35,948 nucleotides of DNA from Candidatus Moraniibacteriota bacterium (lineage in GTDB: Bacteria > Patescibacteriota > Minisyncoccia > Moranbacterales > GWC2-37-73), in contig JAAXUC010000001.1 of NCBI GenBank assembly GCA_013336225.1, forward strand, positions 1 through 35,948, given 5' to 3'. Made by a program: the position numbers and the translations under genes. The notes under the pieces are model-generated. The model saw nothing but the letters and a program-made list of their open reading frames with translations. It had not been told where the DNA came from and searched no databases. This document shows positions 1,000 through 25,916 of this stretch, one piece after another. How positions within the stretch are numbered: the stretch's first letter is position 1; each line of letters begins with the position of its first letter.

Positions 1000-2118
1000 T
1001 TGAAAATAAAAATGAAAAACAAAACACAAAACAGGGAATTATTTTTTATAATGCTTTTGGCATGCCTGTTTTTTGGTGGAGTATTTGTTTCAAGGGTTTT
1101 TGCATTAACACTGGAAGAGCAGTGTGTTGCAAGTGGTGGAAAATTTGGTTCAACAACCAATAGATGTACCGAATGTCCAGCTGGAAAAGTTACTGGGGCT
1201 GGACAAGGTGCTGTTTGTCAAACTCAAGCAGATTACGATGCCAGTGTATCTTCTGCTAATCCCGCAGTGGATGCACACCCTGAGATTGTAGCTGGCGCTG
1301 GAAGTATCTATGCAACATCAACAACAACCCAACCTTCCACCAAACAATTCAATTACAAACTCCTTGGATCATTCCCAGGCTTTTTTTCTGCAGGACAAAC
1401 AATGAATGACTTTCCAGCTCTAATAATCGCAATCTATAAATTTGGCATTTGGACCGTAGGTATTGCAGGACTCTTTATGTTAGTAGTGGGAGGCTTTATG
1501 TATATGGCTAGCGCAGGAAACACTTCCACTGCTGGAAATGCTCGCGGAATAATCTGGGACTCTTTGCTGGGCATCGTGGCAGCCCTGGGAGCATATCTGA
1601 TTCTGTATGTGATTAATCCAGACCTGACCAAGATTAATTTGAATTTTACGCCGGTGGAAGTGACGGAGGGCACACCAATGGGACCTGCAGGTATTTGTAA
1701 GCCAGCCACAACTGCTGAATGTAGTGTGTCTGCACTAACGCCAGTGTTTGGCGCAAAAGCAACAGAGGCTTCAAGCATTTGCAATGGAGAAAGTGAGGGA
1801 AAATCTGTCCCAAGTGGCGTAGATATTTGTGCTGATGGGAAACCAGCATCATGGGGACTTTTCCAAATAAATATTACAGTGCATAAAATTGGCGGATTTG
1901 ATTGCCCCAGTGCTTTTTCTGGAGGTGCATATACGAGTACAAATCATAATTGCAGAGTAAAGGGTGATGCCGCCTCATTAGCAACTTATCAAAACTGCAT
2001 TACAGCAGCAAAAAATGCTTCAACAAATATAGCTCTTGCAAAGAGTCTTTATGTTGGAGCTAAAAACAGTTGGGGACAATGGGGGGCAAACGAGCGCTCA
2101 AAGTGTTTTTTCCATTAG
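1000..2118 (+). CDS. Secreted T4SS-pilin-like hairpin fused to a lysozyme-like domain
   Basis: A 372-residue protein. It has a signal peptide (about residues 1-36, ending VFA), a Cys-bearing N-terminal segment (42-73), then a two-helix module at about 115-221. Helices at about 141-168 and 184-205 flank SAGNTSTAGNARG and are followed by INPDL, the pattern of the VirB2/T4SS-pilin family common in Patescibacteria. Residues about 248-372 look like a lysozyme/transglycosylase fold: GES (candidate catalytic Glu264), SWGLFQIN (284-291) and NSWGQWGAN (356-364), which match the usual ES.., G.fQIN and W..W elements. VirB1-type lytic transglycosylases open peptidoglycan for T4SS assembly; carrying one on the pilin itself is unusual. 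The hairpin is almost identical to that in the gene at 3332. The ATG at 1000 gives the best signal peptide, with no SD. Pilin-like module secure; catalytic assignment probable. Confidence 0.82.
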   Translation: MKIKMKNKTQNRELFFIMLLACLFFGGVFVSRVFALTLEEQCVASGGKFGSTTNRCTECPAGKVTGAGQGAVCQTQADYDASVSSANPAVDAHPEIVAGAGSIYATSTTTQPSTKQFNYKLLGSFPGFFSAGQTMNDFPALIIAIYKFGIWTVGIAGLFMLVVGGFMYMASAGNTSTAGNARGIIWDSLLGIVAALGAYLILYVINPDLTKINLNFTPVEVTEGTPMGPAGICKPATTAECSVSALTPVFGAKATEASSICNGESEGKSVPSGVDICADGKPASWGLFQINITVHKIGGFDCPSAFSGGAYTSTNHNCRVKGDAASLATYQNCITAAKNASTNIALAKSLYVGAKNSWGQWGANERSKCFFH

Positions 2119-2191: not shown

Positions 2192-3316
2192 ATGAAAAAA
2201 CTATTTATAATATCAGCAATTTTATTGGTGGTGGTGCTTATTTTTTTGGGCATCTATAATTTTGCGTTTAAAAAAGACGCTCCAACGACGCAGCAAATTA
2301 TTGCGCCTGTTGTGGATACTTCAAAAGCTTTGTCTGGAGTGAAAACTGAAAAAATAACAGCGATCAGTGACGGCGGAGTGCTGGGCGCAATTATGGATAA
2401 AAAAACTGAAGAAATTAAATATTATGAAACTTCAACCGGGCTTGTTTGGAAAATGGATGCAGAAGGCAAGGGAAAACAGCGCATTACAGATGTGAAAGTT
2501 TTGGGGCTTAAAAAAGTTTTATGGTCAATTGATGCCAGTAAAGTGCTCACTGTGACTCAAAAAGAAGGACAAAATTCTTTTTATATGTATGATTATCGCA
2601 CGCAAAAAGGAACATTGCTCAAAAATGGTTTGGATACGGCTGTTTGGGATAATTTGGGAACAAAGATTTTTTATAAATATTTTGACAATGCTTCACAAAA
2701 AAGAACCATGGATATTGCAAATCCTGATGGAAGCGAGTGGCAAAAAATTGCTGACATTACAGCGAGAAACATTGTAATTGCTCCGGTGCCACTGACCTCC
2801 CTGGTTTCTTATTGGAACGCTCCAAATGCCTCAGAGGAAACTCAATTGCAAATAGTTGGTGCAACTGGAGGAGATGCTAAAACTATTTTGAGTGGAAAAT
2901 ACGGTGCAGATTATTTGTGGTCTCCAGATGGCAACAAGGCGCTGGTAAGTTCGCTTTCAAGTAACAAGAACATGACACTTGGAATTGTTAGTATGGATGG
3001 CACATATCAAGATTTAAACATTCCAACTTTCGTTTCAAAATGTGCTTGGTCGCAAGATGGAAAAACGGTATATTATGCTCTGGCTGGTGGAATTCCAACT
3101 GGCGCAAACATGCCAAACGATTATCAAGAAAATAAATTCAATACAGAGGACACTTTTTGGAAAATGGATATTGCCACCGGCAAAAAAGATCGCATCATTG
3201 AAACTTCAGAAATCAATGGAAAATACGACTCCAGTGAGCTGTTTCTTTCTGTCACAGAAGACGCACTTTATTTTGTGAATAAAATTGATAAGAAATTATA
3301 TAGACTAGAGTTTTAG
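2192..3316 (+). CDS. Membrane-anchored beta-propeller (TolB/WD40-like) protein
   Basis: 374 residues. One N-terminal membrane helix (about residues 4-24, no lipobox) is followed by a linker and a long domain with PD40/TolB-like repeats, for example YLWSPDGNKALVSS and CAWSQDGKTVYYA, plus weaker copies (VLWSIDASKVLTVT, AVWDNLGTKIFY). This predicts a beta-propeller outside the membrane that could serve as a binding scaffold. It lies between the two pilin-hydrolase fusion genes on the same strand, 73 bp after the first and 15 bp before the second, so cotranscription is likely. No enzymatic motif is visible; a structural or assembly role in the envelope apparatus is inference. The ATG at 2192 has no SD. 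Confidence 0.75.
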   Translation: MKKLFIISAILLVVVLIFLGIYNFAFKKDAPTTQQIIAPVVDTSKALSGVKTEKITAISDGGVLGAIMDKKTEEIKYYETSTGLVWKMDAEGKGKQRITDVKVLGLKKVLWSIDASKVLTVTQKEGQNSFYMYDYRTQKGTLLKNGLDTAVWDNLGTKIFYKYFDNASQKRTMDIANPDGSEWQKIADITARNIVIAPVPLTSLVSYWNAPNASEETQLQIVGATGGDAKTILSGKYGADYLWSPDGNKALVSSLSSNKNMTLGIVSMDGTYQDLNIPTFVSKCAWSQDGKTVYYALAGGIPTGANMPNDYQENKFNTEDTFWKMDIATGKKDRIIETSEINGKYDSSELFLSVTEDALYFVNKIDKKLYRLEF

Positions 3317-3331
3317 TTCTTAGACTAGCAA

Positions 3332-4546
3332 ATGAAGATGAAAGGAAATTATATAAAAATAAGAATTCTATGTCAGCTGCTGATATTTGTTGCTGGATTT
3401 TTTGTGGTTGATTCTTCAACTGTTGCAAAGGCGGATAATGCTCTGGCAGTTTCATGTATTTGTAAAAAGTCAGTTGATTCTTTGGAGCATACCGCGACAA
3501 AATTTTTTGCTTCTGAGGCAAATTGTGATCAAAATTGTGCAGACACATATGGCGCAAATGCTGTGTATGCTCTTGGTCTTGGTGGTGGAACATATAAACC
3601 AGTTACGAAAACAGCTGGTGGTTCGGCAACCATTGTGCGTTCATGCACCTGTTCAAGTGGAGCAATATATGAGAATGCGATTACGGGACCTTTTATTGTG
3701 ACAGATGAAGGTGGTTGCATCACTCAATGTAGAAGCTCAAGCTCAAAAATATATCAATATGATGTTGATCCAACCTGGAAAGACGTTCCTATTGAGGGTC
3801 AAGTTCAACCCTCCACCAAACAATTCAACTATAGACTCCTGGGTTCTTTCCCTGGGTTCTTTCAAGCAGACCAAATCATGAATGATTTCCCAGGCCTAAT
3901 AATTGCAATCTATAAATTTGGAATCTGGACCGTAGGTATTGCAGGACTCTTCATGCTAGTGGTAGGTGGCTTTATGTATATGGCTAGCGCAGGAAATACA
4001 TCCACTGCAGGAAATGCCCGAGGAATAATCTGGGATTCCTTGTTGGGCATTGTGGCAGCCCTGGGAGCATATCTGATTCTCTATGTGATCAATCCTGATC
4101 TGACTAAGATCAATTTAAGCTTTACGGCTGTGGAAATCAAATATGATCAAATCGATGCCAGCAACCCAAACAGTTCCAGGGCTTGTCAGGATTGTGTCTC
4201 TGTTGTGGATATCTGCAAAGAAAATCCTTGTTCGCTAAATAAGGTGTTGGCTGGGAAATTGCGAACAGCATTAGTTGGAAAAAATGCAAGAATAACAGAA
4301 GGCTGGCCAGCAACAGTCAATCATTCAAGCTCGTGTCATGGCAATGGAACATGCGCTGATGTTAATTTGACTGAAAATAAGGGCAATGTGCAAGAAGTTA
4401 AAAAGCTTTATGATGCAATGAAAGCAGCTGGCTTAAAACCAATATATGAAGACACGGCTTTGAATTGTGTTAAATATACAGCTGTGGATGTTTATTGTCA
4501 TCCATATGCAACAATGACGTACCCATCTTTTCATGTAAGCATGTAA
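3332..4546 (+). CDS. Secreted T4SS-pilin-like hairpin fused to an M15-peptidase-like domain
   Basis: 404 residues. Signal peptide about 1-34 (ends AKA). Two Cys repeats follow (about 41-73 and 104-134), each with C-x-C near the start and C-x3-C at the end. Then comes the two-helix T4SS-pilin-like module (about 160-268), nearly identical to that of the gene at 1000. Residues about 300-404 contain H336-x2-G-x3-D343 and end near H401 (SFHVSM). This resembles the zinc-binding SxHxxGxAxD ... H pattern of M15/VanY D-Ala-D-Ala peptidases, although an expected Arg-rich SGYR element is only weakly matched (TEGWP). The family call is therefore tentative; the paired H/D/H arrangement is seen. The stop codon abuts the stop of the convergent gene at 4547 with no base between. 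No SD at the ATG; 3338 is an alternative start. Confidence 0.78.
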   Translation: MKMKGNYIKIRILCQLLIFVAGFFVVDSSTVAKADNALAVSCICKKSVDSLEHTATKFFASEANCDQNCADTYGANAVYALGLGGGTYKPVTKTAGGSATIVRSCTCSSGAIYENAITGPFIVTDEGGCITQCRSSSSKIYQYDVDPTWKDVPIEGQVQPSTKQFNYRLLGSFPGFFQADQIMNDFPGLIIAIYKFGIWTVGIAGLFMLVVGGFMYMASAGNTSTAGNARGIIWDSLLGIVAALGAYLILYVINPDLTKINLSFTAVEIKYDQIDASNPNSSRACQDCVSVVDICKENPCSLNKVLAGKLRTALVGKNARITEGWPATVNHSSSCHGNGTCADVNLTENKGNVQEVKKLYDAMKAAGLKPIYEDTALNCVKYTAVDVYCHPYATMTYPSFHVSM

Positions 4547-12510: not shown

Positions 12511-12689
12511 TTTCTGTACACTACTGATAATGCTGGATTTTCGAATAAGACAGCCTAAGAAGAAGAGGAAAGGAGGAAATTAGAAAAAATAGCAATTAAA
12601 ATATTTTCGATAAAAAGGTGCGTTAATCTTAACAATGGTTTAAAGTGATTTTATTTGAGCTTTGCTCATCTATATTTCTACTACCGGAT

Positions 12690-14111
12690 ATGAACAATGC
12701 AGAACTTTGGCAAGCAGCACTTGGGGAAATAGAACTTTCTATCTCAAAAGCAAACTTCAGCACGTGGTTCAAAAACACAACAATTCTTTCCAATGAAAAT
12801 GGCAAAGTTGTTATTGGCGTGCCTAATGGTTTTGCAAAGGAATGGCTGGAAAACAAATACAACACCTATATTTTCAGAGCACTGCGAAATTTTCGTGATG
12901 ACATACGTGAGATAAGTTGCATTATCTATAGCAATGAGCAAGCTCCTGCTGGCGCTACCAGGAAAATGGATTCAGTGGCTCAAGTTGCAGATCAGCAGTC
13001 ATCCGCAGAAAATTATCAGGCAAATACCTATGTGCAACAACCATTGCAGGGAGCTATGAATCCTGCTGCCCCCAATGCTGCTTTTGAAAACAACATCAAT
13101 TCGCGCTATACATTTGAAAATTTCATTATTGGTGAAAACAATGAATTGGCGCGCGCAGCTTGCTTTGCAGTTTCTCAGAATCTTGGAAAAATTTACAATC
13201 CACTTTTCATCTATGGCGGCGTGGGTCTCGGAAAGACGCACTTGTTGCAATCAATTGGAAACGAGGTGCTTGCCAATGATCCTTCTCGCAGAATTAAATA
13301 CATCACTTCTGAGCGTTTTGCCAACGAATTGATTGACTCCATCCGCAATCAGACAGTGAATGATTTCAAATCCGCCTATCAAGCCATTGATTTGCTCATC
13401 ATCGATGATGTGCAATTTTTGGCTGGAAAAGAGAAAACTCAAAATGAATTTTTCCATATCTTCAATGCGCTCTATCAAATCAATAAGCAAATCGTGATCA
13501 GTTCTGATCGCCCTCCAAAAGCCATCGCAACCCTGGAGGATCGCTTGAGATCACGCTTTGAAGGAGGAATGATTGCTGACATTGGAAAACCTGATGTGGA
13601 AACGCGCATCGCAATTTTGAAAACTAAGTCTGCAGAAAATAATTTCTACATGGATGAAGAGGCGATCAGGTTTATTGCTGAAAATGTGAAGAACAACATT
13701 CGCGAACTTGAAGGGGCGCTCAATCGAATCATTGCAGCTTGCGAATTCAACAAAAAATTGCCGACTTTGAAATTTGTGCAACAAGCTTTGGCTGAAATCA
13801 TTTCCAGTGGAAAAAAGAAAGGCATCCAATCGCAACATGTGATCGAAGCAATTTCTCAATATTTCAACATTTCAACCAGGGAGCTTATTGAGAAGGGACG
13901 CAAGAAAGAAATAGCTTATGCGCGTCATATCGCGATGTATTTAATGCGTAGTGAACTTAATGTTTCCTATCCCAGTATTGGATCTCAATTTGGGGGACGC
14001 GACCACACAACGGCGCTTCATGCCTATGAAAAAATCAATAAAGAATTGGAAAATGACGAGAAGGTTCGCGAGGATGTGACCATTTTGAGAGAAAGAATTT
14101 ACGCCGTGTAG
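12690..14111 (+). CDS. dnaA: Chromosomal replication initiator DnaA
   Basis: 473 residues from the ATG at 12690; an in-frame GTG at 12645 would add a 15-residue tail not expected for the family. Domain I (residues 1-80) has WFKNT and FAKEWLENKY. A Gln/Ala-rich linker follows (about 85-135). The AAA+ domain has Walker A GGVGLGKT (176-183) and Walker B LLIIDDVQF. Domain IV has the DnaA-box-binding signature GGRDHTTALHAYEKI near the C-terminus. It binds the boxes on both sides of the gene to open the origin. All catalytic motifs are intact. Confidence 0.98.
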   Translation: MNNAELWQAALGEIELSISKANFSTWFKNTTILSNENGKVVIGVPNGFAKEWLENKYNTYIFRALRNFRDDIREISCIIYSNEQAPAGATRKMDSVAQVADQQSSAENYQANTYVQQPLQGAMNPAAPNAAFENNINSRYTFENFIIGENNELARAACFAVSQNLGKIYNPLFIYGGVGLGKTHLLQSIGNEVLANDPSRRIKYITSERFANELIDSIRNQTVNDFKSAYQAIDLLIIDDVQFLAGKEKTQNEFFHIFNALYQINKQIVISSDRPPKAIATLEDRLRSRFEGGMIADIGKPDVETRIAILKTKSAENNFYMDEEAIRFIAENVKNNIRELEGALNRIIAACEFNKKLPTLKFVQQALAEIISSGKKKGIQSQHVIEAISQYFNISTRELIEKGRKKEIAYARHIAMYLMRSELNVSYPSIGSQFGGRDHTTALHAYEKINKELENDEKVREDVTILRERIYAV

Positions 14112-25301: not shown

Positions 25302-25574
25302 TTATTGCCGCCGAGGAAAGCGTAGTCCTCGAGGAAATGCATGTCGTTGATGGGAATGTCTTCCATTGCCATCAACGATAATTGAAAAGAAGAACCCGGG
25401 TTGGGCCGGAAGTTCGTACCATCCCCAGATAGGCCCTACATAAACAGGTGGTGGTGTGGTATGCACCTGGACTGGTACGCCATAAGGATAATCAGCTGGC
25501 CGTACTGGAATATAAACACAGCTTGCTAACAGGAGTGAGGAAATAACAATAGGTATAACTAATATTTTTTTCAT
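25302..25574 (-). CDS. Small Pro/Tyr-rich lipoprotein
   Basis: 90 residues from the ATG at 25574 (the ATG at 25577 is only three bases from the SD). A basic n-region, hydrophobic core and lipobox LLASC (about residues 15-19) predict a lipid-anchored protein. The mature part is Pro/Tyr/Trp-rich (VQVHTTPPPVYVGPIWGWYE) and then His/Arg-rich. The SD TAGGAG contains the stop codon of the upstream lipoprotein, implying translational coupling. No family recognised. Base composition looks richer in G+C than the housekeeping genes around it, which may indicate transfer. Confidence 0.78.
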   Translation of the reverse strand: MKKILVIPIVISSLLLASCVYIPVRPADYPYGVPVQVHTTPPPVYVGPIWGWYELPAQPGFFFSIIVDGNGRHSHQRHAFPRGLRFPRRQ

Positions 25575-25583
25575 CATCGTCTC

Positions 25584-25916
25584 CTATCGTCGTTTTTTTT
25601 CTTTGAGAGCGCCTTTGCCATAAACCACTTCAAAAGGGGTTGGCCCTCGAGGTTTGGCTACATGCGCTGGCGTGTTTCTTTTACTATGTCCGCCACCTTC
25701 AATGAATATGCCTCCAATTGGAACACCAGGGTTCATATAATAGGGTGTTCCAGCAGTGCAGCATATCTGTCCATTGCCACATGGTCTGCAATGTGGAGGA
25801 ACAACTTCATTCTGATACGTAACAGGTGCGATATAGCTGCCAGGCACAGCATAGACCATGCAACCGCACAAACTGGCTGTCAAAAAAACCATCAGTATCT
25901 TTATTGCTACTTTCAT
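25584..25916 (-). CDS. Small Cys/Gly/Pro-rich lipoprotein
   Basis: 110 residues. Signal sequence with lipobox SLCGC (about residues 15-19), then a Pro/Gly-rich mature region with a Cys cluster (HCRPCGNGQICC), and a basic C-terminal tail (KGALKEKKRR). A strong SD (AAGGAGG) stands eight bases before the ATG at 25916. It is the first gene of a two-gene lipoprotein operon with its own consensus promoter and terminator. No known family recognised. Lipid-anchored proteins would sit on the outer face of the single membrane, possibly touching a host cell; that is inference. Confidence 0.78.
   Translation of the reverse strand: MKVAIKILMVFLTASLCGCMVYAVPGSYIAPVTYQNEVVPPHCRPCGNGQICCTAGTPYYMNPGVPIGGIFIEGGGHSKRNTPAHVAKPRGPTPFEVVYGKGALKEKKRR

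Follow-up and report, generated by a model that had tools for sequence, protein, structure and literature searches.

A pilin-type membrane hairpin joined to a lysozyme-like domain in a Moranbacteria-type genome: a probable T4SS-associated cell-wall hydrolase

Genes at the start of the contig

The analysed stretch of 35,948 nucleotides, hereafter the window, opens contig JAAXUC010000001.1 of a Candidatus Moraniibacteriota bacterium (assembly GCA_013336225.1). A gene encoding a hairpin-lysozyme protein lies on the plus strand at 1000-2118, at the start of the contig in this 1.1 Mb genome and about 10.5 kb from dnaA (window 12645-14111). Its reading frame is open throughout from a TTG at 1000 to the stop ending at 2118 (372 aa); because the proteins of relatives begin at a Met equivalent to the in-frame ATG at 1012 (MKNK...), that ATG is likely the true start, giving 368 aa. 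Residue numbers are nevertheless counted from the TTG at 1000. The ORF is conserved in the genus, the order and the class, and the same-genus relatives carry the labels Moranbacteria or Moraniibacteriota. The protein is arranged as a signal peptide (1012-1104, plus strand, about residues 5-35, a hydrophobic stretch ending VFA-L that begins at the relatives' start Met), a Cys-rich N-terminal stretch, a two-helix membrane hairpin of T4SS_pilin/VirB2-like type (1411-1614, plus strand, residues 138-205) and a lysozyme-like domain of catalytic type (1705-2115, plus strand, residues 236-372). A sequence-only reading had described the same order of signal peptide, two-helix module and lysozyme-like C-terminus, together with the motifs GES (containing Glu264, codon 1789-1791), SWGLFQIN (residues 284-291, positions 1849-1872) and NSWGQWGAN; the ORF and the AlphaFold2 helices and fold agree with that order, and all three motifs are located where it had placed them.

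That reading treated 1000-2118 as a single protein and overlooked a second hairpin-hydrolase encoded on the plus strand at 3332-4546, as well as the wider set of fusions to which both belong. The second protein contains a signal peptide, a Cys-rich region, a hairpin (3812-4138) and a LAS/M15-type domain at about 4184-4543, with H336, D343 and H401. Between the two fusions lies a gene for a membrane-anchored TolB-like propeller protein (2192-3316, plus strand; TolB TIGR02800 at 1.1e-5, below cut-off), which adjoins hairpin-hydrolases across the order and has a homologue (2e-15) in a VirB4 cluster of Nomurabacterium. Upstream, at 1-969 on the plus strand, the contig end cuts a large secreted beta-rich protein, leaving its C-terminal part, which ends in a membrane helix. 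In relatives, homologues measuring about 1000-1260 aa lie upstream of the hairpin-hydrolase, and no convincing similarity was detected between the beta-rich protein of the window and its upstream counterpart in locus L108. The other neighbours comprise cell-envelope genes, namely O-antigen ligase-like, glycosyltransferase and flippase genes, and the origin region. Two small adjoining lipoprotein-like ORFs rich in Pro, Tyr and Gly were also seen on the minus strand at 25302-25916.

The lysozyme-like domain

Pfam, NCBIfam and PHROG scans of the hairpin-lysozyme protein itself returned nothing useful, and for this reason both of its domain assignments were built by passing through relatives, in combination with profile alignments and structure. 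Scanning genome contigs with the single protein recovered no relative, whereas an alignment used as query did. For the lysozyme part of the window protein no Pfam model matched at E <= 1; among 12 homologues, SLT_3 (PF18896) matches nine (best 3e-11) and SLT (PF01464) four, both tallies being counted at E <= 1 rather than at the Pfam cut-off. All 27 aligned sequences agree in the columns E-S, D, S.GLFQIN and W and in three Cys columns, so that the motif does not arise by chance. With these 27 sequences, AlphaFold2 modelled residues 108-372 at a mean pLDDT of 85.8, and at 92-98 across most of the lysozyme part; the predicted structure contains both a lysozyme-like fold and a two-helix hairpin. 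The best VIA-align match of the model is hen egg-white lysozyme (1lzg, Z 9.3, 105 residues, 3.1 A), followed over residues 236-372 by 7ave (Z 8.9) and Bombyx lysozyme (Z 8.8). Foldseek alone against the PDB gave nothing significant for the model (best E 2.8), and the fold call is thus derived from the VIA-align result, the motif and the SLT_3 matches in relatives. A profile search of solved structures with the lysozyme alignment brought up ribonuclease A (E 0.075 upward), a match discarded as Cys-driven chance because the motifs and the fold do not agree with it.

The column two positions before GLFQIN, which we take to be that of the second catalytic Asp of C-type lysozyme (Asp52 in the hen enzyme), is an invariant Ser in all 27 aligned sequences, as placed by motif register rather than by superposed coordinates. 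Since the second acid of C-type lysozyme (GH22) is replaced in this way, a mechanism with one Glu, as in a lytic transglycosylase or a goose-type enzyme, appears more likely than a GH22 mechanism. A domain profile search located the lysozyme-like domain in five of six same-genus genomes (all but G004), in 19/131 genomes of the order and in 18/384 genomes sampled across the class.

The membrane hairpin and the second fusion

In the AlphaFold2 model the hairpin is formed by helices 138-170 and 175-205, and a signal peptide plus two membrane helices with a short loop are present as judged from the hydropathy of close relatives and from these helices. The proposed assignment to T4SS pilins draws on relatives: in the window protein, PF18895 (T4SS_pilin) aligns to positions 1432-1614 with 14.2 bits, under its cut-off of 26.6, whereas relatives of the same architecture score in the range of 27-36 bits, with L098 (32.9), L105 (36.4), L120 (29.4) and L126 (33.9) over the cut-off. 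T4SS_pilin and SLT_3 both exceed their cut-offs within one ORF in L098, L108 and L126. The conjugation pilus 8dfu also matches the hairpin in VIA-align (Z 7.9); it is tied with unrelated hairpins, and two-helix hairpins are common, so this match was discarded as proof of pilin identity. Judging from the topology, both ends of the hairpin would lie outside the membrane whether the signal peptide is cut or kept, and the enzyme domain would then face the wall.

The hairpins of the 1000-2118 and 3332-4546 proteins are 91% identical over 111 columns. In the latter protein, H336-x6-D343 and H401 correspond to invariant H, D and H columns in alignment A6. Its C-terminal model is weak (pLDDT 64), and nearly all of the top structural matches of the domain are LAS or Hedgehog proteins (Ply500, ChiX, T5 endolysin, VanXY and LdcB). 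Sonic hedgehog (E 0.002) was the best sequence match in a profile search, no curated M15/VanY model matched the 3332-4546 protein, and its relative L067 matched VanY at 0.026. We read this C-terminus as an M15/LAS-type metallopeptidase-like domain. Matches to PPR designs were set aside as short helical chance matches.

Spread of hairpin-hydrolase fusions

Hairpins of this type occur in 57/57 genomes of the order, and many of the hairpin ORFs fetched carry a C-terminal hydrolase-like domain, which may be lysozyme-like, LAS-like, VanY-like, SLT or C39; the LAS-like assignments in relatives come for the most part from recognising the H-x6-D...H motif by eye. Fusions of hairpin and SLT in one ORF are exemplified by L086 (1.6e-13) and L091 (4.3e-13), and a fusion with a C39 peptidase by L110 (2.3e-13). 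Among sampled loci, which do not represent counts for the phylum, a hairpin lies in the same ORF at 11/30 SLT loci of the order and at 27/36 named lysozyme loci (two as fragments), the remainder of the latter being truncated or provided with other membrane anchors. The domain order described by the sequence-only reading was recovered in Patescibacteria at the level of genus, order and class. On the strength of these ORFs, the hairpin-lysozyme protein is one member of a widespread group in which several types of hydrolase are fused to a hairpin, and not a one-off. In L104, L113, L117 and L118, the lysozyme-like domain is located on long, low-complexity, non-hairpin membrane proteins.

Further arrangements were seen at single loci. 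At L110:2136-6438, three hairpin-hydrolase genes (LAS-like, C39 peptidase and lysozyme-like) are neighbours, two of them with identical hairpin DNA. In Doudnabacteria (L104:3793-6405), a non-hairpin lysozyme directly follows VirB4, in the slot taken by hairpin fusions elsewhere. A lysozyme-like domain (SLT_3 1.9e-5, below cut-off) was also found on an 881-aa non-hairpin membrane protein at L116:3808-6450 (JACPJU010000001.1); this contig is binned as Aenigmatarchaeota, and a truly archaeal origin is suggested by its Alba-like ORF (2864-3148).

Within single genomes, hairpins joined to unrelated enzyme domains have identities of 91-100% at the protein level and 85-100% at the DNA level (six Moranbacteria-type genomes, namely five relatives and the window's own), and between genomes the identity reaches at most 87% in protein and 81% in DNA. 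The hairpin DNA of the lysozyme and C39 genes in L110 is 100% identical over 330 bp. A hairpin tree has few well supported forks, and the claim of homogenisation is accordingly placed on the identity table instead of the tree. Such within-genome near-identity fits gene conversion or recent shuffling, and it suggests that the hairpin proteins all have to fit one common partner. Split hairpin genes in two genomes, G001 and G002, were considered as frameshifts or inversions and rejected in favour of assembly gaps, being runs of N in G002 and contig ends or a collapsed stretch at near-identical repeats in G001; the near-identity of the hairpins probably breaks both assemblies.

Linkage to T4SS genes

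The genome to which the window belongs encodes VirB4, PrgI, a VirB6-like protein and short pilins on contig C12, away from the window; the VirB6 and PrgI labels on C12 depend on resemblance to known positions and on a weak PrgI match in L097. Because the VirB4 cluster lies on this other contig, with short pilins of its own, the T4SS link of the hairpin-lysozyme protein rests on its relatives and family: co-location is seen in the same and in other orders, and the fusion of the window's genome is itself not beside VirB4. Within the same order, L177 shows VirB6-PrgI-VirB4 ... hairpin, hairpin/SLT, propeller, O-antigen ligase and flippase, and L180 shows VirB4 ... hairpin/SLT, hairpin/LAS, propeller, ligase, flippase, YidC and DnaA. 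In Nomurabacteria, hairpin/lysozyme genes lie downstream of VirB4, with DnaA nearby in L108, L121 and L125; the order VirB4 ... hairpin/lysozyme is found in these three loci and in L097, the VirB4 of L108 matching PF19044 at 1.2e-26. A fused gene is further embedded in arrays of short pilins in L103, L115, L119, L120, L122, L124, L127 and L178. The proposal of the sequence-only reading that the hydrolase is placed on a VirB2/T4SS-pilin-type scaffold thus gains support from relatives with T4SS_pilin and SLT_3 or SLT in the same ORF, from the lysozyme fold and from this synteny. The same reading also supposed that the protein may be a self-clearing appendage subunit or may be delivered into a host or neighbour cell. 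An unfused SLT protein is encoded on contig C22 of the window's genome, so the hairpin-lysozyme protein is not the sole possible VirB1 there.

Two further features of these clusters were recorded. In Ryanbacteria (L119:3975-10002), a hairpin-lysozyme gene is followed by about eight hairpin ORFs, forming a large pilin array. In most clusters outside the window's genus, the hairpin-hydrolase is followed by a small exported protein of about 150-185 aa that ends in YGLSFCPNG and has no Pfam match (for example, L108:6412-6966 and L098:1017-1463).

Proposed function and alternative readings

The layer with direct support consists of the predicted folds, the domain order, conservation, T4SS synteny in relatives and the near-identity of hairpins within genomes. 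On this basis, the hairpin-lysozyme protein is probably a T4SS-associated, membrane-tethered peptidoglycan hydrolase in the role of VirB1. As its signal peptide implies, it would be exported by Sec, after which the VirB2/T4SS_pilin-type hairpin would insert into the cytoplasmic membrane, its loop on the inner side and the lysozyme-like domain in the wall space. Packed against pilins or the VirB6/PrgI base, the hairpin may hold the enzyme at the T4SS, and the single conserved Glu would cut glycan strands, the motif register pointing to a lytic transglycosylase or a goose-type muramidase. Its partner from 3332-4546 would contribute a LAS metallopeptidase for the peptide stems on the same type of hairpin, such that glycan and peptide cutters could be brought to one site. 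Counter-evidence to this reading comes from the separate contig of VirB4 in the window's genome, the unfused SLT protein on C22, the scores of the window protein below the Pfam cut-offs for both domains and the commonness of two-helix hairpins. It also comes from the four loci mentioned above (L104, L113, L117 and L118), in which this lysozyme domain is attached to membrane proteins lacking the hairpin, an indication that the pilin hairpin is not strictly needed. It is conceivable, though doubtful, that a broader principle operates, wherein hairpin subunits with interchangeable wall-cutters (lysozyme, SLT, LAS peptidase and C39) form T4SS pili or bases and are kept compatible by homogenisation of their hairpins within each genome, so that the machine opens its own and the host's wall with no separate VirB1.

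The main rival to a tethered, VirB1-like function is display on a pilus: the proteins would be true minor pilins whose hairpin polymerises into the T4SS pilus or caps it, presenting the enzymes outside to act on the host wall. The near-identity of hairpins within genomes, up to the 100% DNA identity over 330 bp in L110, would be expected if they pack in one polymer, and the fused genes do occur in pilin arrays; moreover, two publications (PMC12857230 and PMC10633639) describe Patescibacterial T4SSs as thought able to build pili and as essential for host life. Homogenised hairpins are, however, equally expected if both proteins dock on a shared membrane partner, or if simple gene conversion took place. 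A pilus would also be crowded if each subunit bore a domain of about 130 residues and a large N-terminal region. No description of such a pilus was found for these lineages, and display on a pilus is considered unlikely.

The hairpin might alternatively be a plain membrane anchor for ordinary wall enzymes of growth or division that lie near T4SS genes and the replication origin by chance. The cell-envelope genes and origin region around the fusions in the window, and the use of other anchors in some relatives, are in line with this explanation; but a single N-terminal helix would suffice as an anchor, the hairpin is specifically T4SS_pilin-like, and the cassette directly adjoins VirB4/PrgI/VirB6 in several families and is found in pilin arrays, so that a plain anchor seems improbable. 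Lysozyme-type effectors are known for bacteria-killing T4SSs, and delivery of the protein by the T4SS into neighbour cells as an antibacterial effector would have a precedent in them. Its signal peptide and hairpin instead point to Sec export and retention in the membrane, no obvious adjoining immunity gene was seen, and the gene recurs next to VirB4 as a stable part of the operon in distant families, all of which renders an effector role very improbable. The tethered, VirB1-like hydrolase remains the preferred reading.

Comparison with known systems

VirB2-like pilins were reported in 1,948 assemblies by Quinonero-Coronel et al. 2025 (PMC12102498). These authors note that most Patescibacteria genomes with VirB2 are without VirB1, conclude that the pilus apparently does without it, and place T4SS genes near dnaA in many Paceibacteria. 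The pilin cluster is called unusual for monoderms in a 2025 T4SS review (PMC12857230) and in Wang et al. 2023 (PMC10633639). The T4SS is essential for host life in the one Patescibacterium studied genetically. No mention of pilin-hydrolase fusions was found in the open-licence literature as far as its texts were available, including passages of PMC12102498, PMC12857230 and PMC10633639. The fusions suggest a direct answer, open to testing, to the question of the missing VirB1, and may explain wall passage without a separate enzyme; they also provide a sequence signature by which to recognise, in a large uncultivated group, enzymes that may come into contact with the host's wall.

The described Patescibacterial VirB2-like pilins (PF18895) share with the hairpin-hydrolases a signal peptide, a two-helix hairpin, a SAGN-type loop and sequence kinship via intermediates over the cut-off, but they are short and arranged in arrays, whereas the hairpin-hydrolases measure about 260-520 aa and bear C-terminal domains of catalytic type. 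SLT_3 (PF18896) covers the same motif and region and matches most of the homologues, the window member falling below cut-off; no stated T4SS role was found for this domain model. The 3332-4546 protein resembles LAS/M15 enzymes (Ply500, T5 endolysin and VanXY) and the Hedgehog N-domain in its H-x6-D motif, its C-terminal His and its top structural matches, and differs from the LAS/M15 enzymes by the pilin-type hairpin and by the weakness of its sequence matches, with Hedgehog the best. VirB1 and the monoderm VirB1-like hydrolases (TraG of pIP501, PrgK, CD419 and TrsG) are alike in having an exported, envelope-tethered lysozyme- or SLT-type domain encoded with a T4SS and in the pairing of glycan- and peptide-cleaving domains. 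These known hydrolases are separate from the pilin, and several monoderm ones combine SLT and CHAP in one protein, whereas in the window the anchor is a pilin-type hairpin and the putative peptide-cutting domain belongs to a second protein that shares this hairpin.
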